Assembly: GCF_000003605.2 (NCBI RefSeq)
Contig: NW_003156734.1
Span: forward strand, 636,188 to 658,143
Direction: 5' to 3'
Origin: Saccoglossus kowalevskii
Lineage: Eukaryota; Hemichordata; Enteropneusta; Harrimaniidae
Length of the DNA stretch: 21,956 nt
Below the pieces are notes generated by a model. That model saw only the letters and a program-made list of their open reading frames with translations. It did no database searches and was not told where the DNA came from. Positions within the stretch are counted from its first letter, which is position 1, and the number at the start of each line of letters is the position of its first letter. Below, piece by piece: positions 1-21,956 of the stretch. A program made the translations under genes and the position numbers.

Positions 1-715
1 GATAAGGTAGAATCCGAATTGATGCAACTTCAACAGGAAGGTGTAATCGAACCTGTTGAGTTTTCTGATTGGGCTGCACCCATTGTACCTGTGTTGAAGG
101 GTAACGGTCAAATACGTACTTGTGGAGATTACAAAGTAACCATGAATCAAGTTGTGAAACTCGATTCGTAACCGATTCCACGAATCAAAGATCTTTATGC
201 AACCCTGAGTGATGGACAGACTTTCACTAAGCTTGATTCAAGTAATGCCTACTTACAACTGCCACTAGATGATAAATCCAAGGAGTTCACTAACAATAAA
301 AACACACCGTGGACTTTTCAGATATAATCGCCTACCGTTCGGAGTATCATCAGCTCCAGCGATTTGGCAAAAGTGTATGGATAGCCTCCTAGAAAGAATT
401 CCGCATGTGTGTGTATTTATTGATGATGATCTGATCACAGGAGAGACAGAAGCTGAACACTTACACAATTTAGAGTCAGTATTGAATAAATTTTCTGAAG
501 CGGTAATTCATGCTCGTAAAGAGTAATGTGTTTTCCAAGCAAAAGAAGTAGAGTGTCTCGGATACCGTATCGATGCAGTGGGCCTACATCCACTGGAAAG
601 CAAAGTTCGCGCGTTGATGGATGCTCCTGTTCCGCGTAGCGTAACTGAATTGAAAACATTACGGTCATTTTGTATCCAAATTATCAACCGTGTTAGCGCC
701 ACTGTATATACTTCT
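1..715 (+). pseudogene. Ty3/Gypsy reverse transcriptase domain, decayed, 5'-truncated by window edge
   Basis: This is the reverse transcriptase part of a Ty3/Gypsy (K02A2.6-like) pol polyprotein, which in life would copy element RNA into DNA. Frame 1 (1 to about 295) shows the N-terminal RT block with DWAAPIVPV and the motif-A region TKLDSSNAYLQ. Frame 2 (about 295-665) continues with RYNRLPFGVSSAPAIWQ and the YxDD-type catalytic box as FIDDDLITG near 412-440, then the connection region. It is broken: in-frame stops at 169-171 (TAA) and 524-526 (TAA), a frame change near 295, and a short deletion with a frame change near 665-680, where the link to the next block is lost. The start of pol, gag and the 5' LTR would lie before the window. 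The family assignment is confident; no function is expected. Confidence 0.93.
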
Positions 716-1230
716 GAACAAGAATACTAAATGGTACTGGGGAGTGACACAAGATGAATCATACAACGAGTCTAAGTGATTATTAAATTCTTCGAAAGTA
801 CTTGTTCACTATGACCCAACGAAAGAATTGATACTTGCTAATGCATGCGGTGCATCACACTACAGACTCGGTGCTGTTCTCTCTCACGTAATGCCAGATG
901 GCTCTCAGACACCAATTACCTTCGCATCACGCGTATTATCACCCACCGAGAAGAATTGTTCTCAGCTAGAGAAAAAAGTGTTATTCTTACTTGTTTAGCA
1001 GACATTTTGAAATTCTCAATGATCACAAGCCGTTACAAACCTTGTTTAATGAAGAAAAAGGTGTCCCAACAATGGCATCATCGCGAGTCCAACGATGGAA
1101 TCCCACATTATCCGCTTACGACTATAAGTTTACGTGTAAGCCAGACAAAGATGGGCCATGCCGACACGATGAGTCGATTACCACTGCAAGATCAACCGTC
1201 CAACATTCCTATACCTACTGATACCGTGTT
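682..1230 (+). pseudogene. Gypsy RNase H domain and linker, frameshifted
   Basis: This block continues the pol pseudogene into the RNase H domain, which would degrade the RNA strand during reverse transcription. Frame 3 (from about 682 to 985) reads the connection and early RNase H with KWYWGVTQDES and GAVLSHVMPDGSQ, interrupted by TGA at 777-779. Frame 1 (about 985-1150) reads RHFEILNDHKPLQTLF and ASSRVQRWNPTLSAYDY, characteristic of the domain end. Frame 2 (from about 1150) reads HADTMSRLPLQ, the usual end of RNase H. Between the frame-3 and frame-1 parts about 30 bp of expected sequence are missing. A single extra base near 1150 probably explains the last shift. Several independent lesions indicate an old copy. 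Confidence 0.92.
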
Positions 1231-2240
1231 ACTGATGGAATTCCTAGACACATCACCTGTAACGTCAGAGGATATCAAACGATGGACAGATCGTGATCCA
1301 GTTATTATCACAAGTTCGTAGATTCATTACTAACGGTTGGCCAAATACATTGTACCAGAAATCCGTTGAGCCAGAACTCAAACCATACTTTGTTCATAAA
1401 TGCGAATTGAGTGTTCAAGATGGCATAGTTCTATGGGGCAGTGAAGTCATTGTGCCGCAGCAAGGACGATCGCGTATACTAAAAATGTTACGTGAATCAC
1501 ACCCAGGAATAGTTCGCATGAAAGCATTCGCTCGAAATTATGTATGGTGGCCATATCTAAATGATGAAATAGAGACTACTGTTCGCAAATGCAGTACTTG
1601 CCAAGTTATTGCGAAATTGCCCGCACCTATACCAATGCATTCATGGGAATACCCAAAAGGACCATGGGATCACATACATATTGATTATGCAGGACAGTTT
1701 CTTCATCAAATGTTTCTAGTAATCATCATCTGTGCATATTCAAAATGGATGGAAGTATTTCCGATGAAATCTACTACAGCTGAAGCTACAATAGAAAAAC
1801 TACATATTGTGTTTGCACAGCAAGGATTACCATCTACAGCCATATCCAATAATGGTCCACAGTTTGTCAGCCATGAGTTTAAGACATTTATGCGAGCGAA
1901 TGGAGTTACACACATAACTTCCGCACCATATCATCCTGGATCCAATGGTTTGGCAGAGCGATCTGTACAAACATTTAAGGAAGGGATGAAGAAGTTGAAT
2001 AAGGGGAGCATTTCATCCAGAGTATCACGATTTTTACTCAAATACCGTGCTACACCACATTCCACGACAGGAAAGTCACCAGACATATTACTGTGTAGAA
2101 GAAAGTTGAAAACTCACCTTGACCTACTTCAACCTGATGAATCAGCGAAAGTGCGACGTGCACAGACGACTCAGAAATTATGGCACGATATACACTCAAA
2201 AGGTGGAGAATTCTCTATTGGATACCGTATTTGCTTATAA
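1231..2240 (+). pseudogene. Gypsy integrase (H2C2 + DDE core), catalytically dead
   Basis: Integrase inserts the element DNA into the genome. The first part is in frame 2 to about 1300, then a long open stretch runs in frame 3 (1293-2240). The zinc-binding region carries HPGIVRMKAFARNYVWWP and KCSTCQ, but the expected first zinc His is Arg (CGT, 1491-1493). The DDE core has the first Asp in HIDYAG (1683-1685) and the Glu in GLAERS (1956-1958). The second Asp, normally in SDNGPQF, is Asn (AAT, 1848-1850). The C-terminal region ends early at 2238-2240, after which matching sequence resumes near 2250-2275 in another frame, so a short stretch has been lost. It was a true integrase by family, but two key residues are gone, so I infer it is inactive. 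Confidence 0.95.
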
Positions 2241-2519
2241 TTTTAGATCTAGTGTACAATAAGACGCCATACAGATCATCTCAAAAAGTGATTGTTAGAT
2301 GTTAGTGTTGATACCAAGTTATATTCACATAGTGATAGTGAAATAGTCAGTAGTGATATTTTGTTTATTCCAACCACTACACAGATTGGTGTACCCAAAA
2401 TCCCTGATAGCATAATTCAAAAATCATCAGATTTAGGAAATTTACCTAGTACACCGAAACCTGTTGAGTTACGACGTTCAACTCGAATTAAAAGGGCACC
2501 AGAACGTTTAGATTTGTAA
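2241..2519 (+). pseudogene. C-terminal tail of Gypsy pol
   Basis: A short open stretch (2292-2519) ends in ELRRSTRIKRAPERLDL followed by TAA. A basic tail of this RRSTR...PxRLDL type closes many K02A2.6-like Gypsy polyproteins. Just before it, RRHTDHLKK (about 2255-2280) is the end of the integrase C-terminal region, closed by a TGA. This marks the end of the coding part of the element, which is followed by about 275 bp of non-coding sequence before the polypurine tract. Confidence 0.8.
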
Positions 2520-2795
2520 AATGTTTATTACACTAGTTAGTAATGTGTTCTTACTTTTGAAGTTACAGAAAAAAAAACTGTTTGAGCAACCTTAATTTTG
2601 TGTTTCAGAGCAAATTCAGAGCAGGGAAGGTGAATGCTGAAGATTCACTAGCAAGCGTGATTTTTTTTCTGGAAACCTCTCCCCTCTAGTTAGGTTATTT
2701 TGTTATTTATATTGTTGTAATTTTTGGAGTTTTATTGAAGGCAAATTGCAGAACTCTTATGCACACAACTAGCATTTGTATGTATTCAAAATCTT
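2520..2795 (+). other. Untranslated 3' internal region of the Gypsy element
   Basis: No ORF or recognisable motif. Its position between the pol stop codon and the polypurine tract fits the 3' untranslated internal part of the retrotransposon. Confidence 0.6.
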
Positions 2796-2807
2796 AAGAA
2801 AGGGGAA
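2796..2807 (+). other. Polypurine tract (plus-strand primer) of the Gypsy element
   Basis: AAGAAAGGGGAA is an uninterrupted purine run ending directly at the TG that opens the LTR. This is the expected place for the plus-strand primer in LTR retrotransposons. Confidence 0.8.
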
Positions 2808-2990
2808 TGTAGTATATTCACATTTTATTGTACTTGTGAGATGACCCTTGACCCTATCATAGCTAGCTATTTGAGACGCCCCTTAACTAGTGTCGTCTGC
2901 GCCTGGAGATGCCCGCCATGTTGTAAGTTCCGTAAGCAGAATAAACCTGTTACTGGATTGATCTTGTGTTTCTTGTGTGGATACATTACA
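2808..2990 (+). mobile_element. 3' LTR of the Ty3/Gypsy element (183 bp)
   Basis: The stretch begins TGTAGTATATTC right after a polypurine tract and ends ATACATTACA, so it opens with TG and closes with CA. The ends are roughly inverted (TGTAgTAT against TGTAatGTAT). An AATAAA lies at 2940-2945, about 45 bp from the end, as expected for the LTR polyadenylation signal. The matching 5' LTR and the target duplication partner lie outside the window, so the right boundary rests on the CA end and the inverted termini only. Confidence 0.75.
2940..2945 (+). promoter_or_regulatory. AATAAA polyadenylation signal inside the LTR
   Basis: AATAAA within the LTR, about 45 bp before its 3' end. It would end the retroelement transcript in R. 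It could also stop read-through towards the aminopeptidase gene, which lies downstream in the same direction. Confidence 0.6.
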
Positions 2991-3468
2991 TTTACGAGAA
3001 TCTATAGCGAATGGTAGATTGTGATTATGTCATCGTGATATGTTGCACGATGGTTTTCCATAGAAACGAACTTGAACCAACAACATTTGAGCCCGGTATT
3101 TGAGACGTACGATTAGAAAAATCGTGAAAAGGTACAACAAAGGTAGTAATAATATCATGGTACACTTACCGGGTTGGAAATTGAAATTCTCATAGTGAAC
3201 GATGTAAATCAGAAAAGATAACTTGCGAGACAAGATGAGACGGTGGTTGTACGTGTTGTAGCAACGGCGCAATGTGTGATGATTGTTGTAATTGAACATG
3301 CGTTACGTCATCAGTGCGCTTCCATTCGATTGTTGAAAACACCGCGATAAAATGCGGTATTTCTTAAATTAGTTTGCAAAGAAAACGCGTGTTTATTTAC
3401 CGGTATTGAAAAAGAATTGGTTAAAACTAATTAAACAAAGTAAATGTGAAAGTTACTGTGTACGGTGC
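2991..3468. other. Intergenic sequence between the LTR and the inverted-repeat element
   Basis: No recognisable gene. A minus-strand open stretch (3030-3299) contains a good GTAAGT donor on that strand (just after 3173 reading downward) but has no recognisable domain; see findings. The sequence is locally richer in CpG and ACGCGT-like words than the introns. Confidence 0.5.
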
Positions 3469-4165
3469 CCGGGGGTCCGACTTAAAGAATGATCTGGTAC
3501 GCATGTCTGTGAAAAAAAACGCGTTAAAAGGGTGTGTGTTTTTTTAAGAAAAGCACGTTAACGCGCGTTACGCGTTTAGGGTTACAATTTCAGTCAAAAT
3601 AGACAAAAAGGGTGTCCTTTCCGTTTGACAGTGCAATTATCATTATGAACATTCTGCCTTGATATGTTGAAAACACATTACAGCACCATTGTTAATTTTC
3701 AATTAAATAATTTGCAAATTCAAAATTGGTTGTGAAAGACCCCAGGATGAGTTGAGGTAGAGTGGGTTGTATTTATGGGTTTCAGATATATATGCTCAAT
3801 GATGGAAATTGTTGAAACCAAACTGGAGAAATTTATTGATGTTTGCATATTCCTGAAAAATGAATATGATCTTAACAAAATATGTTGTAGTATAAATCAT
3901 TTAGAAGTAAAGATATTATAGCCACACTGTGAAGGTGACTAATCACAGTGTTAATTGTCATTTAAATGCTAACAACATTTCTGCTTTAATTTTGTTTCAT
4001 GCCGTAAATAGATTTTAAAACACTCAACGCATTTAGGGTATGTATTTTAGCTTATTTTAGTTAAAAGGGTACGAAATTTTGACATTTTAAAACGTGTTTA
4101 GGGTCATTTTGAAAACCCCTTTCACAGACATGGGTTCCAGGTATTTCCACAAGTCGGACCCCCGG
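3469..4165. mobile_element. Non-autonomous DNA transposon (MITE-like) with terminal inverted repeats
   Basis: The left end CCGGGGGTCCGACTT (3469-3483) is exactly inverted at the right end (4151-4165). A second matched block, CATGTCTGTGAAA at 3502-3514, is inverted at 4120-4132, so the arms match in two blocks across about 46 bp. A possible 5-bp target duplication GGTGC flanks the element (3464-3468 and 4166-4170). The interior has no ORF but carries a repeated ACGYRTTTAGGGT word (3571-3582, 4027-4039, 4092-4104) and a small hairpin at 3924-3951. The superfamily is not decided; no transposase is present. Confidence 0.7.
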
Positions 4166-4769
4166 GGTGCGTTGGCAAGGTTTGACATAGCGCCCTCTAG
4201 CGGCGATATGTAGATAACCATTGTTGTTCGCTTAGCGTGCGAAGTTACTACCGGTAGCACTGCCTCGGAATATTTATTTTGCGAGGTCACGGTCATGTTC
4301 AACGAATAAAAACGATGATATGCCCTGAGTCAGTGTTGATCTAATGAAATAAAATAAATAAGAGGTTATGTGCGACAATATTGTCAACTGACCATTGCTT
4401 CCTTGGCCACAGTGCAGTGTATGATTTATGAGAAAGAAATAATGCAAGGAGTTGTGGAGATTATTGTATTTTCAAGTTTTCGCATTTAAATACTTGGTAT
4501 CAAAGAAACAGTTTAATAGTTGCAATAGCATCATCATGAAGTTACATGGCATCAAGAGATTACATTTTAACCAAATACAAATAGAGTTATAGCGCCCGCA
4601 GTGTTAGTTACTCTTATTTCGTTCATTGGAATCAGCTGGCGACAGATAGCATCGTAGAAGACGCCAACGTCGTTCAGAAGTATTTAAGCAGTCAGATCAC
4701 ATCGTTTACTTGAACCAAGCCACAAAGTATGTTGTGGTTACAGAGAACGTTAGCTGGGTTTCATAAACC
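4166..4769 (+). other. Upstream region / putative promoter and 5' UTR of the aminopeptidase gene
   Basis: This is the interval between the inverted-repeat element and the start codon. It contains a CTCF-like motif (4188-4204), a second weaker AGCGCCCGCAGTG (4591-4603), and no clear TATA box at a useful distance. An upstream ATG at 4729 opens a frame that overlaps the main start. The transcription start cannot be placed from sequence alone. Confidence 0.45.
4188..4204 (-). promoter_or_regulatory. CTCF-like binding motif
   Basis: TAGCGCCCTCTAGCGGC closely resembles the reverse complement of the CTCF core, which is of the form TAGCGCCMYCTRGTGGC. CTCF is present in most bilaterian animals. The match is by eye and only suggestive; such words also occur inside old repeats. 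Confidence 0.35.
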
Positions 4770-4929
4770 ATGGAGTCGCCAACAACGTACGAACACAGTG
4801 ACGCGATGGTTCCAGACCAAAAAAATGCCTTCGTTTTCACTGGAAATATCCGAGTCAAATTGGTACGTCGTTTGGGCTTCATTTCATCATCACGACATTG
4901 TCTTCGAAAGAGAGTCAGGTTCCTTTTGA
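4729..4929 (+). other. Upstream ORF overlapping the aminopeptidase start
   Basis: An ATG at 4729, 41 bp before the main start and in a different frame, opens a 66-codon frame that runs 160 bp into exon 1. Its context has A at -3. If the transcript starts upstream of 4729 it could lower translation of the main frame. The encoded peptide resembles nothing I recognise, so it is listed only as a possible translational control element. Confidence 0.3.
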
Positions 4930-5413
4930 TAATGTCTTTTCTTATTTTAACGTTGCTGCTGGTAATTGGTGTCCGATCGCCTAATGTAAATTCACCTCCT
5001 GACCGCCAATCCGCGGAACTATCATTAAGTCGGCGTCTTCCTCTCGATGTGAAGCCAACCAACTATAAAATAAAATTAACACCATATCTAGACGAAGAGG
5101 ACTTGGAACGCCTTTTCACGTTTGACGGGGAGGTGTATATATTAGTGACCTGCCGTCAAATGACCGACACTGTAACACTGCATGCTGCCAGTCTTAGCGT
5201 TGACATTGAGTCCATCCAAGTCACGGACATGAACGGTGATGTAAACATGGGAGTGGTCGCCACAAACATTGTATCCCAGTTTGACTTTTTCGTGATAAAC
5301 TTGAAGCATTCGCTACAAGTTGGTCGCCAATATATAATGTACATGAAATATTCCGGGAATATGACGACCGACAACAGGTGGCTGGGTTTTATTGCAAGTT
5401 ACAGTGGAACCAG
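4770..5413 (+). CDS. Aminopeptidase exon 1: cytoplasmic tail, TM anchor, M1 N-terminal domain
   Basis: Encodes residues 1-214 plus two bases of codon 215. It holds the basic tail with RHCLRKRVR just before the membrane segment (positive-inside, type II), a Ser/Pro-rich stalk, and the first part of the N-terminal beta domain from LPLDVKPTNYKIKLTPYL. An NMT glycosylation site is at residue 197. The exon ends ...ACCAG and the donor GTAAGG is partly made by a MITE (see 5418-5862). It ends in phase 2. Confidence 0.93.
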
Positions 5414-8400
5414 GTAAGGGACGACGTCAAAAGATCGATGTCGGATAAAAAACTTAAATCCTTTAGTTTTTTTTCCAAATCCCCCTACCCCCCACTGAAA
5501 CTTAGTTGATAAATATTCGTCATGGCGTCAGACTACATTCACTATTAAATACAAATTGATAATCGAACAGTAGTATTGCATAGCAGTTGGTTGTCGGGTG
5601 GGTGTAAAGAGAGTTTACAAATGCACCTCATTTGACGCACAGATTTACACTCGAACCAAACCATTTTTCTGTGTTTTTTCTTCTCTTTTCGGTTATTTCT
5701 GTCCATGATTGGATAGAACTACAAATACTCCAAGATTTTTTTGACTTCATTAAAAAATAAAATCGTTTTTGTAGGATGGAAACTTTTTGAGGTCAAAACC
5801 CCCCACCCCCAAACTAAAGGAAATAAGTTTTTTATCCGACATTGATCTTTTGACGTCGTCCCTAAGTCCGTTAAATTATGCATTTACCTACCAGTCGCCT
5901 AGTACCAATACAATTTTCTACCCGTAACAGTTCTAAACTTAATGACGTTTTATTCCGTGATCGTAGATGCATTTTTATACTTTTTCCTTTTAAATGTGTT
6001 GTTGAAATCTACCTTGGATAGAACTTACTATAGCTTTTTCATGACAATATCTGATTTTTTACAAACGATCCGCAGCATTTCACTTTTTCGCTATATTATA
6101 TTTGTAAGCAGTGAGACAGACAAAGGGTGAAATTGGGACTGAGGGTGTGACTTTAACTTTAAAGTTGCCTTACACTGGGGAAGTATCTCTCTGCAGAAAT
6201 AATTAATGCAGCAGTAGATATCTGCACCAGACGTTTCTTTCCAATAGTTATAAATTACTCAGTATTTTCATAGATTCATTTGCAATTGAGTTTTCAGCAT
6301 TCTAGGGCGTCATCAAGTCGCATATCTGTTTAATGATCAAAGATGAATCATATTACAAAATTAGTATCCAATGTGAAATATTTTCCATTAGGTATAAGAT
6401 GAACAACAGACTCTGAGTTGTTTTCTGTATAACCATTAGATCCCTCCCTTTTGAATTATAGAATGATTATTTTACAAACATTGTGTGAGAATGAACTTAG
6501 AATATAGAATTTATCGATGTACTTCCTACACTGTAGGCTGTAGTTGTGTTTAGAATGAGCTTAAAGCAGGATTAACATCAGCAATGCATGATGGGATTTA
6601 TTGTATAAGAAGTTATTCAATAAATGGTACAATATGTCAGGTTTTAATTCTTGAACGCTATAACTCTCAAATTTGATTTTTGCCCAAATTTACTCAAAAT
6701 TGAAACTTGCATTTTGCCAACAATACAAATTCAAGATCAATAATTGATGAATAAATAGCAAGTTATATGTGGAAATGCTTTTGCAATAATAGAAGGTTTT
6801 AAACAGTTTGTTTACCGGAATCTATGTATGTCAACTTGCTTTGGTTATATAATGTGTTTTTGTTTTCTGAGTCTGCAATAAATTGCTGGAAGAAAGTACT
6901 GTTATTGTGACTGAATACATGTTGTTTGTTTGTTTGTTTACCATACTTGATGAACCTGTCTGTAGATATATTGCTTCCACACACCTGGAACCCACTTATG
7001 CTAGGTCTGTATTTCCATGCTTTGATGAGCCTTCGCTGAAAGCAACCTTTGACATCACAGTGAAGCACAGACTGGGAAGATCTGCGCTGTCCAATATGCC
7101 GAATATCAAGAATCACACACAAGGGGAATGGAATACTGCATACTTCAATACAACAGTCGTTATGTCAACCTACCTGGTAGCGGTAGTTGTGTCTGATTTT
7201 GAATGTAAAGAAGCTGTTTCTGAAGGTGTACAGGTGTGTATAGGAAATGAATGAATATTGAATTATTATGCAGATTTTGTTATTTATGCTGGAATTAGAT
7301 GCGCGTCATGCAAGTGTACCATTATGATACACAGACATGCATGCTCTTGTTTGCAGTGATGTTGTATATGCTCAATTTCAGACTAGCCATGTAACTCTGT
7401 TGGTCATGACTGCATATGACGTTTAGTGAAGTATTTTCGCAATGTTTCTGAGATGTATTTTATTGGTCTGAATCAAAATAACTCATCGATATGTGGTTTG
7501 GATATATACATGTAGATTCCAAATGTGATGTGATAATTTTTGCTGTTCGATTTGTTCAAATTAACATGCGTAGTGATTACTAATAAATAGTTTGGTCCAC
7601 ACAGTAAAAATTTGTTGTCAATTCGTCAAATACAGGATCAGATTTCATTGTAGAGTCAATGGGACTGCACACTGCATATATGATGTGTATTCTACACTAC
7701 CCTTTACACGTAATTCATTAGGCCTTGATTCAATATAATTCCTGATTTCTGAATTAATAGCTTTTGTGCTTTTATTGTGCTTTTATGTGCTTGCTTATAT
7801 TGTGTGACCTGAGGTCATAATCCCCTCAAATAAAAGTGACATCATCTTTCAACTAACTAACATATTTTGGGGGGCATTTTGGGAGTTAAAAAAACTATGT
7901 CATGGTCACATTTACTCAGCGAAACACACACGTTCCATATCTATTTCATTTCATTTTCTCAGTGAAAAATCATCTGTTTCATCTGATATTCCTCATTTCT
8001 CATCTGTCTTGTATAGTTCTTCTAGCTGCCCTCGTTTGTACCCACCCACACTCACTCAGCTACCTTTTAAAAAACTGTTTGAAATATGCTGCTGACTTCT
8101 TCCATGGTTGCATCTTTATTGTTCCTTTGACTTTTTATATTGCTGTCCTATCCTCACCTGTTGCTACAAGCATGTGCAAGTAGAACTACCGTACATCGCA
8201 TCTCATTAGTATTCGGAAATTATGAATAAACCTGGCATATTGTCTCTATTATGTATATTGAGGGGGGCATGGGGGGGGGGTAGCTGGTACAGTTTTACAG
8301 TTTACAGTGAATTGTGTCATCTAGTCGTTTTACAGTTTCGAAAATGTAATTTCCCTTGACTATTCTTTATGACTTTTTTCATTTGGATGTAAATTCTTGT

Positions 8401-11400: not shown

Positions 11401-14400
11401 TCATAATGCTTCTAATATCTTTGGGTGGATACAGTACAATCACGTTAATCAAAATAAACACTATCAGTTTACATAAATGTGATTTTTTTGCATTTTCGGC
11501 CCAAAAGATAGCTTTATGTTTAATTGTTGACAAATAGGTGAGTGTATGTTGTATTATAAAACAGGAGACAAATATTAATAAGATACGTCTTATGAAGCCA
11601 AACAAAACAAAATCTTGATTTTCAAGCAAAGGATTATGGGTAAAGTATGACATCATATTATCTTTACCCATAATCCTTTGCTTGAGAATAAAGATGGCTG
11701 ACAACTTAATACTTTATAATACCGTAATTCAACTTTAATACCAAGTACATGCTATCATATCATACCGTTCAATAAGCTTTAATATGTAAAGTTAAATATC
11801 AAGAGAATGAAAAGTGATATAAAAAAACTGTAAATTGCATTCTCCTACATTTGTGAAGCTTTTCCCTCAGGGGTCATTATGTTGTTTGGATTGATGTTTT
11901 CTTTAAAGTAATTACACTGTTTTGAATTTTGAAATTTGAAAAGTAGTCTCTGTCAATTAGTCTAAAACTAATTTGTGATTGCTGCTGATTTGACATTGTA
12001 CTAAATAATATGTGTATTCTTATTTCTGTTTAGTATGAAGAGTTCTATCAAGATAGGATAACATTCCAAGCATTTTTAGCGGATATGGATCCTGATTCCC
12101 AGTCTATTGTCGCACCAGCCGGAAAGTACAGACCACCTGTGGAACAGTTTGCTACAACCTCCTATAAAAAGGTACTATATGAATATTGATAGGTTTAAGT
12201 TTAATATATATTGTAATGAGATTGTATCTACAGTCCTGTAGCCTTGTCATCACTAATCATCAACAACAACAACAAATCTGGATAACTTTCAGTATTTCTG
12301 AGTGTGTTAAAATAATATTGTTTGATTTTGTATCTTGATACAATTGATAATATTTTTTGTGAAATAAAAATACTGTTTTGGCAGTAAACAGTATTCGGTT
12401 CAATGAAATAATGAGATTGATTTTCTGTATGCTAGGGAAACCTGGGACACATATTTCATCAAACAATTACTGCAATGTATGCAGCCAAAGAAGGTTTTCA
12501 TTTTATTCTGTATCAAAAAAAAAATAATTTAAGCATGCTTAATAACAACTTGAAATATCCACATTGCCTCTCGTACACTGTGTTGATTTCAAACTTAAAT
12601 TAACTGTGACCGATTATTAAAGATACGCTATGAAATGTACAAAGCTACAGAATCTTACGATTTACAGCGACTCACAAAATTGATGGTAATTTGCCGCCTG
12701 TAATATTGAAGCAATTTATAGTGCTCTTTACCGATTTCCGATTTTTGAAATGAATAAAAGACGTCTATTCTGAGAATAGTGACAATACGTTTTTACAGCT
12801 AAGGTAAAACACATTTCACAGTGGTAAATCAGGATGCATTAGACATTAATTGGCACACCATGCTGTGAGCAGTTTCTCTTTGTGCTTTAATGGTCTTCAA
12901 GCGATATATTCTCCCTAATTCAATCAACCTTGCACAGATAATTTCCCACAACCATAAATACAGCATGTATGACACTTAATTTTGATTGGTGCTTCCTCTC
13001 TCTTCTCCAGGGTGCTGCCATGGTGATGATGATGCAGACTTTCTTGGGAGAAGAGACGTTTTATGAGGGTGTGCGGAATTACTTAATGCGTCATTTGTAT
13101 GGCAGTGTCAAACGAACCGATTTGTGGGCATGCTTGACAGAGGTATGTGCTTTACCGCTGATATGAACATCATTAATACTGCATAAATCAATATGAGATT
13201 CCCTGAAGGCTATCAGGATTCCAGTGAAATTAGTTTACATGTATTTGCATTCAACATTAATCACCATCAACGATGCTCCTGTAAATCAAACACATGATTC
13301 ATTTTCATGCCGAACTAATGTTGAGACGGACTGTTCCTTTGGTACATGCAACCATGAGTCAATAATGTGAAGGAAGAAATATATTACAAAAACAACATTC
13401 AGAGAGTTTGATGTTTACACAGGATATAAAGAGTTGTTTTGTGGTGTATTTCTCATCCAACCATGTTTAAAAGAGCTAGGCTATAAATGATTAAAAAACT
13501 TGGGTATTTGAGTGCATATATATGACCTTTATTTATTTATTTTTATTTATTTGTTTGTTTATTTAATTTGGTGCAACACTCTTTGAACAGGGACTAGCTA
13601 TAAAAACAAGGAGCTGGAAAGTAATTCATAACAAAAAATAAAAAGCATACATGATTTCATGACTAAAAAAATCTTTCTTTTTTAGTTCCCGTTAGGACAT
13701 GTATCTTAGAAATGCCTGGACCAATCACAATCAAACTTCACACATACATCATACATGATATCATACATATGCACGTCAATTTGTTTTATGATCTGATTCA
13801 AGATGGCTGAATGGCGGCCATTTTTGTGCTAAAAAAGCATTTCTCGGCTGTTTAAAGATGGATTTTGTTCAAACTTGATATATACATTAGACATTATGGG
13901 ACCTTGATGCAAATAAATTTGTTTTTCAGATAACATTCAAAATGGCCGACTGGCAGCCATTTTGTTTTAATGAATGGGCTTCTAGACCCATATCTCCGAC
14001 TTGTTTTGACTGATTATGTTCAAATTTTAAATATTCATTATACATCATGTCATAGATAGACAGATATATTGGTTTGACGATCCTATTCAAAATGGCCGAT
14101 AGATTGTCATTTTTGTGCTAAAAAATCATCAAATATCAAGCATTTCTGGCATTTATGGATGAATTTCGTTCAAACTTGGTACATTGTACATACATTAGAC
14201 ATTACGGGTTCCTGATGCACGTCATTTTATTTTTCAGATCAGATTCAAAATGGCTGTCTGGCAGCCAATTTGTTTTAATGAATGGGTTTCCAGACCCATA
14301 TGTCTGACTTGTTTTGATTATGTTCAAATTTTTAATATTCATTATATATTATGTCACAGATATACGGATATATTGGTTTGACAATCCTTTTCAAAGTGGC

Positions 14401-17400
14401 CTAATGGTGGCTATTTTTGTGCTAAAATAATCCTCGAATATCAAGCATTTCTTGCATTTATGGATGGATTTTGTTCAAACTTATAACACACATTAGACAT
14501 AACAGGTTCCTGACTGGCTGACTGGCAGCCATTTTGTTTTGCTTCTCGAGCCATATCTCTTAAAGGGCCATTACACATTAGGCTTTGACTGATTATATTC
14601 AAATTTTATTTATTCGTTATACCATAGACCTTCTAAGGGCTATGGTTATACATCATGTTATATATATATACATGTATTTAAAATGGCTGATTTTGAATGC
14701 TGTTCCAGAGCAATATCTCTCAATATGGACAAGTACTTGTTTGACGATCAGATACAAATGTCAATCATTTTAATGTTAAAAAAATCATATTCCTGACATG
14801 GTTATATTCCAGCTATATTACTATAAACAAAACTATATATCTTAAATTTGATAACTAACAGGGACTGTGCCATGCATGGCATGCATGGTGTCAATAACTT
14901 TATTAATTCCTTAAAATTTACTTTCTCTGTTTGCCTGACTATTGATAAATTCACTTGTAGGCTGACATAGGTAAAGGAGACACAGATTTCAGATCTCTGA
15001 TGGAGCCATGGCTGCTATATCCTGGCTATCCACTCGTCACTATATTAAGGCAGGGTAGTGTCATAACAGTGGAACAGGAACAATTCTTAATACAACCTTT
15101 GAAAAAAATCAGGTTAGTTCTCATTTTTAGAATTAAAAAAAAATCAGTTCTAGTCTTCGTGAATCACACTAGTGTATTTTATTATAGTAAAATTAGGAAC
15201 GACGTCAAAAGATCGATGTCTGATAAAAAACTTATTTGCTTTAGTTTGGAGGTGGGGGGTTTTGACCTCAAAAAGTTTCCATCCTACAAAAACGATTTTA
15301 TTTTTTAATGAAGTAAAAAAATCCTTAGAGTATTTGTAGTTCGTTTTTTTTTAAATCAATCATAGACAGAAATAACAAAATGAAAAAAAAACATCCAAGA
15401 CGAGAAAATAGTTTGGTCCGATATGTGTGTCAATTGAGGTCAATTTCCTGGCATAGACCTAGAGCATGCGCAGAACCCAGAAAAGTAGTTTGAAAAGAAA
15501 GCGTATATTTCCCTTCATTTTTACAACCAACTGCTATGCCATATTACTGTTCAATTATCAATTTTTATTTAATGGGGAATGTAGTCTGACGCCATGATCA
15601 ATATTTATCAATTAAGTTTCAGTGGGGGGGGGGGAAACTAAAGGAATTAAGTTTTTTATCCGACATCGATCTTTTGACGTCGTCCCTTAACTGTCAGCAA
15701 TTTATCAAAGCTGAGGTTGAGGGCGCTATTTCATATGTAAGGGAATTATAATTTGTTTCTATCTTTGCTGTACAGTAATTGGTCAATACCACTGACATAT
15801 TATCATTCTGGTAATGTGAATGGTTCTCCAGCCAAACGGATATGGTTCACTGGACACACAGGTTCACTAGTTATTTGTTTATTCAATTCTCGAATTGATA
15901 GCATTCGCATATTGCGTGACCCTGACATAAACAAACCAAAAGGTAGAACAGATTTTGAATGTTCAAAATGCGCAAAGACACAATACACCACTTGCCCGTG
16001 TTTCCAACTCGCAGCGTAAAAAACACCTCAAATAAAAGGGCCAAGATCTTTCAACTAACTTGCATCAGCCTTTGTTTACTGTTCTGCCTATTAAAGCAAG
16101 AAAAACGAATATGCAAATTAACGTTGGCTATATACAGTACTTACATAACAAACTGAGTATTTGTATAATTATTAACTCAAATCCAGCTTTTTTGTTTTGC
16201 TGTATTAAAATTTATACTCGCAGTTTATTTCGGCCTAAGAAGATGTCTTCTTGATTCATGCAAAGAAAACTATGGAAAAGTTGTGCAAATTCAGATCTAG
16301 ATAATTCTACGATGAACTAATTTCTGGCTGATCACTTCCCCTACAGCAACTTTTAACCTGACTGGAGTCAGTGAATCTGATTGGACGCTATTCAACATCA
16401 ATCAAACAGGTTATTATCGTGTTAATTACGACACTGATAACTGGTATAAATTAATCAATCAGTTACAATATGACCACCGAGTAATTTCATGTCAAAACCG
16501 AGCTGCTTTAGTGAGTGATGTCCTAGCAACAACACAGTCACAACATGTCAGGGCCGACTTATCACTACAACTCATGGAGTATCTTGTAAATGAGACAGAC
16601 TATTCACCATGGGTTGCATTGCAGAGTTCTGTTTCATATATTGACAGAATGCTCGGGAGGACTCCTGTGTATGAAAGATTCCAGGTATATTTCAGTTTCT
16701 TTCCCTGATACTTGAATGCATGCACATATCAATCTCAGCACAAGACAAAGTTATATTCAAAATGAAAATTAGAACAGAAGGGTTGTTTTGAAAATGACAG
16801 TATTTCATTTGCACAGCAAGTTTCACATCAATTTTGTTTTGAGAGAAAAACACACAATATGATTAATTTTATTTTCTTCCCAGAATTTCATCCAAAGCCT
16901 GATTAAGCCGATGTATTATAAATTTGGTTGGAATGTGAGTTCGATACAAAATATAGTAAATTAGTAAGTATATATATAAAATTATAGTATAATAATAGTT
17001 TTTACTTGAATAATTTTTAATGAAGCAAGATTTTAAAATAGACATTATGATTAGGTTTTTCATGAGATAGCACTTTATAAATAACAAATTGACGGTAGAT
17101 GGAGATATGATAGCCCTGTCATTTAGTTCCAAACTTGGAATAGCTTTGGTGGCAACTATCCTCTGTATGTACATTTAGCATTTGAATGCACATGCAATAA
17201 AAAAATCAGGAGAGACAACAGTGACATTCAATATCAATATCACTGTTGTCTAGCTGAAACATATATATTTTTAATAAAAGGTGTTTACTGTAACATGCTA
17301 ATTTATTGATTAGCAAAACTGGTATCAAATGGTGGTAAACTCTAGAAGTTTAGACTTATTAATTAAGTTAAATTATATAAAATATGAATTAAATTAAATA

Positions 17401-20770: not shown

Positions 20771-21375
20771 CATCTCATGCAGAGGTTCTTAAGAAGATAA
20801 TGTTAGAGAGTGCATGATGTTCCACTGAAAAAATAACTACTAGTATTCCATGCATATTAATTACCTAATTTGCATAATTTTGTAGCTTTTCAGCTTATAT
20901 TGCATTTACTAATCATTACATTTCAATGAAACTTGGTACATAGATGCTCTTCGGCTATACAAATACCTAATTGGTTTTGAATACTGTACGTTAAATACTT
21001 TATTTATGCTTGGAATTAATTTTCGCTGAAGGAATTATAGTCCAGTGGATTTAGCCCTGAAACAGGTCGAACCGGGAAGTAAATAGTACATTAACAAGTT
21101 TGGTATCAAAAGAGGGAATATTTTGTAGATTTACCAAAAAAAACCCCAAGAACTGATAACATGGGCAATTTTTTTTACACAGGTAGATGTAAGATTAGTG
21201 TTTTTCATGCATTTTAGATTTTTCTTACATTTATATTTTGTAATTAATATTACTTACAGCCTACACATTATTTCATATAGATATTGCTAGTGTTTTTATA
21301 CACTTTTTATTTAGATAAACCGGAGAAACTATCTGCCAGTTATAGAACAGAAATTTGCTGATGTCAGCACTTTTT

Positions 21376-21467: not shown

Positions 21468-21470
21468 CCG

Positions 21471-21956
21471 ACTGTTCCACTGCTATCTCAAGAACCATAC
21501 ATCGGTTTTTGATGAAACTTGGTGCATAGATGCTCTGGGTCAATGCGCAGATTTGATTAGGTTTTGGTAAAAATCCATGCTCGTTAATTACCTAATTTGC
21601 ATGATAATTAGCTAATTTTTAGCTGTTCTATGACTGTTCCACTGATATCTAAAGAACCACTCATTGGATTTTGATGAAACTTGGTACATAGATGCTCTGA
21701 ACATATGCGCAGATTTGATTAGTTTTTGGTAAAAATCCAGGCATATTAATTACCTAATTTGCATGATAATTAGCTATTTTTTAGTGGTTCCATGACTGTT
21801 CCACTGATATCTAAACAACCACTCATTGGATTTTGATGAAACTTGGTACATAGATGCTCTGAACTAATGCTAGGTTTTGATTAGTTTTTGGTAATAATCC
21901 GTGGATACTAATTACCTAATTTGCATAATGATTAGTCAATTTTCGGTTTTTCCACT
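21471..21956 (+). repeat. Tandem repeat array, period 162 bp, runs off the window
   Basis: ACTGTTCCACTG begins units at 21471, 21633 and 21795. GAAACTTGG starts at 21514, 21676 and 21838, each exactly 162 bp apart. Each unit contains a GATGAAACTTGGTACATAG phrase and an ATTACCTAATTTGCAT phrase. The third unit is about 11 bp shorter, and a fourth begins at the window edge (TTCCACT). No coding capacity is supported. Confidence 0.92.

Follow-up and report, generated by a model that had tools for sequence, protein, structure and literature searches.

Duplication of a TWA triplet at the target site marks the PIF/Harbinger group of transposons among its relatives (PMC4482050), and what members of the group ask of their targets has been described in several cases. 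When the flanks of mPing were altered, TTA or TAA was chosen in 45 of 46 insertions, and the passage that reports this asks nothing beyond the triplet; the same source describes the excision of Tourist-like elements as generally precise (PMC4561436). Harbinger elements in barley prefer a short TAA motif, again with nothing asked beyond the triplet in the passage concerned (PMC5738225). A wider motif is found in some relatives, for example NuwaII, which prefers C|TNA|G (PMC4482050). The ends of mJing and Jing are given as GGCTGTGTTCG and GGGTGTGTTTG, respectively (PMC6850418).

The greater part of an animal aminopeptidase gene of the M1 type lies on the plus strand of the window considered here, meaning the whole stretch of 21,956 nucleotides that was analysed; 15 exons were modelled for this gene. 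Exons 1 to 11 join in frame, and their open frame includes the zinc motif HELTH, which I take to be that of the M1 family; on these grounds the gene does not look decayed. Exons 12 to 15 are tentative, because the frame breaks past exon 11, and the model apparently lacks a small exon ahead of exon 12. The exon peptides match aminopeptidase N and its relatives, as well as the Pfam families Peptidase_M1_N, Peptidase_M1 and ERAP1_C. The surroundings of the gene hold repeats of their own. What looks like a decayed Gypsy-type retrotransposon (positions 1-3000, by a reverse transcriptase-/integrase-like reading made by eye) ends upstream of the gene, and a further inverted-repeat element lies upstream of the coding start (3468-4166, with 47-nt arms 83% complementary and the ends CCCGGGGGTCCGACTT). 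Past the gene there are three tandem copies of a 162-nt unit (21470-21955), parts of which appear again at 20841-20950.

Exon 1 (4770..5413, plus strand) is coding from the ATG at 4770, stays open in frame, matches aminopeptidase N in translation and has CAG as its last bases. Exon 2 (6966..7233, plus strand) follows the acceptor TGTAG at 6961-6965 and was placed by its in-frame join and by protein alignment. The join 5413|6966 defines intron 1 as a phase 2 intron. The peptide of the joined exons 1 to 3 aligns across it to aminopeptidases in the PDB (lowest E-value 4.3e-39), and a single match to Pfam Peptidase_M1_N (residues 95-285, E 1.2e-40) covers it. All four PDB alignments displayed are interrupted near the join by a short gap, a few residues long, so that homology backs 5413|6966 but does not fix the exact residue or base. 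Presumably the position of the intron is conserved in the aminopeptidase genes of other animals, an assumption that forms no part of the evidence.

The first bases of intron 1 run directly into a MITE. At its left border the letters are ACCAG (5409-5413), GTAA (5414-5417) and then GGGACGACGTC from 5418 on; at its right border they are GACGTCGTCCC (up to 5862), TAA (5863-5865) and GTCCG. This copy (copy 1; 5418..5862, plus strand) is 445 nt long, begins GGGACGACGTC and is flanked by the target duplications TAA at 5415..5417, which are also positions +2 to +4 of the donor, and TAA at 5863..5865. Complementarity between its arms (5417-5469 and 5811-5863) is 94%; as the arms include one duplicated base, the terminal inverted repeats proper to the element come to 52 bp. 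The cut is ambiguous by one base, since TAAG occurs on both sides, and the empty site predicted from it is unaffected.

Intron 8 of this gene holds a second copy, 491 nt long and of the opposite orientation (copy 2; 15196..15686, minus strand), with arms 92% complementary and with the target duplication TTA on its left (15193..15195) and on its right (15687..15689). The two copies are identical in 362 of 425 ungapped columns, with gaps in 86 of 511 columns. That copy 2 has a TTA duplication of its own supports both the borders of the element and the 3-bp duplication, which is short and in this respect counts against the explanation favored below. The element is thus repeated and dispersed within 22 kb, two copies in all, both with a TWA duplication (TAA for copy 1, TTA for copy 2), and the same borders within different flanks speak for a mobile, TWA-targeting family. 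Three of the four ends start with the G-rich GGGACGACGTC and the remaining one with GGAACGACGTC. Starts with GGG or GGC are typical of PIF/Harbinger-type ends, and MITEs of this type depend for their mobility on an autonomous relative, whose DDE transposase acts together with a Myb-like protein. From its ends and its duplication, the element would be a non-autonomous DNA transposon of the PIF/Harbinger type. Its exact end patterns had no matches in collections of viral and prokaryote contigs, where little was expected, and Rfam at gathering scores gave no match in the window.

Excising the element together with one TAA gives CAG|GTAAGTCC (with more of the flank, ACCAG|GTAAGTCCG). To judge how unusual this sequence is, contexts were counted on both strands of the window after each element and one of its duplicates had been removed. 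There are 1,169 TAA sites in this element-free window, 40 of which read TAAGT, 12 GTAAGT and only two AGGTAAGT; removing both TTA duplicates of copy 2 lowers the first count to 1,167 and leaves the others the same. Both AGGTAAGT sites are donors at exon ends of the gene model, one of them the empty site of copy 1 and the other the donor of exon 3. The GT of GTCCG, to the right of copy 1, corresponds to the displaced +5/+6 of the predicted ancestral donor. Of the 13 other donors in the model, 9 have GT at +5/+6, and GT follows 40 of the 1,169 TAA sites (3.4%). An earlier normal donor at this place thus makes the displaced GT some twenty times as probable as an arbitrary flank would. No other observation speaks as strongly for a donor that predates the element, and I infer that it was in use before the insertion.

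The history that I consider very probable is that intron 1 already had a GTAAGT donor when a MITE of the TWA-targeting, PIF/Harbinger type entered the TAA at its positions +2 to +4, and that this donor most likely still works. A staggered cut followed by the filling of gaps is the mechanism by which target duplications arise. Here it would have duplicated TAA, leaving G plus TAA on the exon side, with the terminal G of the element taking the place of the old +5 G and the second G that of the +6 T. CAG|GTAAGT would so have become CAG|GTAAGG, with the loss of one pair to U1 and the gain of 448 nt by the intron, whose length goes from 1,104 to 1,552 nt. Any TWA-targeting element with ends that start with G would have the same effect at a GTWAG donor, preserving it, and the survival of the insertion therefore needs no special targeting. 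By precise excision, the insertion of copy 1 could revert to the original donor.

Much of this history had been proposed in the first-pass annotation of the window. It placed the start of a MITE at G5418, right after the ACCAG|GTAA of exon 1, with TAA on both sides, and these coordinates and letters are correct. The matching ends and the TAA and TTA duplications bear out its view of the element as a TWA-duplicating MITE, and the rarity of AGGTAAGT (two of 1,169 TAA sites, both of them modelled donors) agrees with the empty site CAG|GTAAGT that it predicted. The sequence at the borders likewise accords with its account of the donor, in which GT, +3 and +4 were kept through the duplication, the element supplied the G at +5 and the sole change was from T to G at +6. 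It was also right that the MITE extended the intron, in the sense that an existing intron was lengthened and not made. Its statement that the duplication rebuilt the donor holds for the T of GT, the first duplicated base; the G of GT belongs to the left flank, so the duplication alone did not do it.

A different origin of the donor deserves consideration. Since this element turns any G followed by TAA into GTAAG, the original donor might have lain elsewhere, upstream or downstream, the insertion having built the present one from a flanking G, the TAA and the GGG end and so shifted the border of the exon. The few extra residues that homologues have near the join make a small shift conceivable. 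I regard such a shift as unlikely, given that the right flank has GT exactly at the old +5/+6 (GT follows TAA at only 40 of 1,169 sites), that exon 1 ends in CAG, and that the frame and the M1_N domain continue through the join.

The preservation of the older donor can also be judged from the sequence of the present 5' splice site, GTAAGG (5414..5419, plus strand), in which +1 to +4 come from the host and the duplication and +5/+6 from the element. CAG|GTAAGG has GT at +1/+2 and complementarity to U1, as a U2-type donor does. On a crude scale, calculated for a human-type U1 end, the pairing energy is -12.1 kcal/mol at the predicted empty site and -11.5 kcal/mol at the filled site, and the filled site remains the strongest of the 14 modelled donors. 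Its use at present is accordingly most likely. The opposite outcome would be that the insertion damaged the donor, with the product now made from a cryptic donor or a retained intron and the gene or one of its isoforms impaired. Either retention of intron 1 or the use of any downstream donor leads at once to an in-frame TAA stop at 5415-5417, and one GT within the element (at CGG|GTGGGTGT, its G being position 5598) has a better U1 energy than the donor of exon 1 (-12.6, on the same crude scale). Moreover, +5/+6 fall within the long stem of the element in the predicted fold of the filled pre-mRNA, and if that fold forms, their pairing could hinder U1. The donor is paired in the predicted fold of the empty site as well, so that folding does not discriminate and is used neither for nor against the preservation of the donor. 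Damage of this kind seems to me very unlikely, in view of the U1 pairing of the filled donor, the best of the 14, and of an open frame with HELTH through exons 1 to 11, in a gene that has no look of decay.

A more radical possibility is that the element created intron 1 itself, as introners do. Introners are known that have inverted ends and obtain their 5' splice site by way of the target duplication (PMC9860276), and in this respect they resemble copy 1. Introners have both splice sites at or near their ends; the acceptor of intron 1 (6965) is 1,103 nt past the end of the element. When the element is removed, an intron of 1,104 nt keeps both splice sites, and copy 2, also intronic, is distant from both splice sites of its intron. 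The creation of the intron by the element is hardly credible on these grounds, and the lengthening of an older intron remains the reading to be preferred.

The first-pass annotation went further and suggested that a GTAAG donor might itself be a hot target for elements of this kind, a suggestion that the window does not support. There are 806 TWA triplets in the introns of the model, 762 of them outside the elements, and the GTWA form is found in 5 of the 14 donors of the gene model. About 0.7% of random insertions into TWA in these introns (5 of 762) would then fall on a donor, and occasional insertions into donors need no preference. The donor of exon 8 (GTTAGT, 15113..15118, plus strand) is of the GTWA type and lies 83 bases ahead of copy 2, and it was not hit. 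With many intronic copies per genome, insertions into donors should occur, in a form tolerable to selection.

One feature of the flanks could be read the other way. Both copies, in the orientation of the element and at the same end of it, have CAGN ahead of TAA (5411-5417 for copy 1 and 15687-15693, minus strand, for copy 2), and CAGN precedes only 13 of the 1,213 TAA sites that the window has on its two strands, the two MITE sites included. The motif C|TNA|G of NuwaII is absent at both. The transposase of the family might thus prefer CAGNTAA, which matches the donor consensus CAG|GTAAG, making donors a real hot target in which insertion is nearly harmless. I consider this highly improbable: the match was spotted after the fact in two sites, and the site of copy 2 is not a donor. 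If such a preference were true, the element would be a splice-site-seeking and splice-preserving transposon, and if an extended target matching donors held throughout the genome, the choice of target by a transposon would be linked to tolerance by the splicing machinery.

The two copies, in introns 1 and 8 and opposed in orientation, flank exons 2 to 8, a block of 1,080 nt that is divisible by three and has phase 2 on both sides. Their RNAs are predicted to pair with each other much more strongly than each does with itself (-545.6 kcal/mol together vs -276.8 kcal/mol apart, while ten shuffled controls gained nothing), in a model that leaves out the last two bases of copy 2 and ignores both the 9.3 kb between the copies and co-transcriptional folding. 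If it took place as modelled, such pairing could favor the circularization of these exons or the in-frame skipping of exons 2 to 8. MITEs of plants have been linked to circular RNAs (PMC12595863). The introns in between hold other repeats. In intron 5 there is a short, near-perfect hairpin (11612-11695) with 34-nt arms 94% complementary and a 16-nt loop, and intron 7, which separates exon 7 from exon 8, has imperfect repeats about 300 nt apart, with recurring stretches like GGCAGCCATTTTGTTTT (13722-14540).

What makes the locus of use is that it would provide a worked example of how a TWA-targeting element with ends starting with G can do almost no harm to a GTAAG donor, and of how the growth of an intron can begin right at its first bases. 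Where insertions are many, chance alone can be expected to place one in a donor. Among the matches listed in the literature (titles and the starts of abstracts), no title concerned the preservation of a donor by the target duplication of a MITE.

Compared with described systems, the element is like the Tourist-like PIF/Harbinger MITEs mPing and mJing in its TAA/TTA duplication, its inverted ends starting with GG and its short, non-coding body. It differs from them in having an animal as its host, and its ends are of 52 bp rather than the 11 bp given for mJing (PMC6850418). As with the introners with terminal inverted repeats treated in PMC9860276, its target duplication (TAA, positions +2 to +4 of the donor) gives part of the 5' splice site, but those introners make introns, whereas here an existing intron was lengthened by an element with no role in the acceptor. 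The location of a MITE at a splice site recalls the MITE-associated alternative 5' splice sites of mulberry, which are tied to alternative splicing or exonization (PMC6593561); the donor described here, by contrast, seems to be preserved. MITEs at splice sites are an event of a known kind, to which this case belongs, with preservation of the donor as its particular feature.
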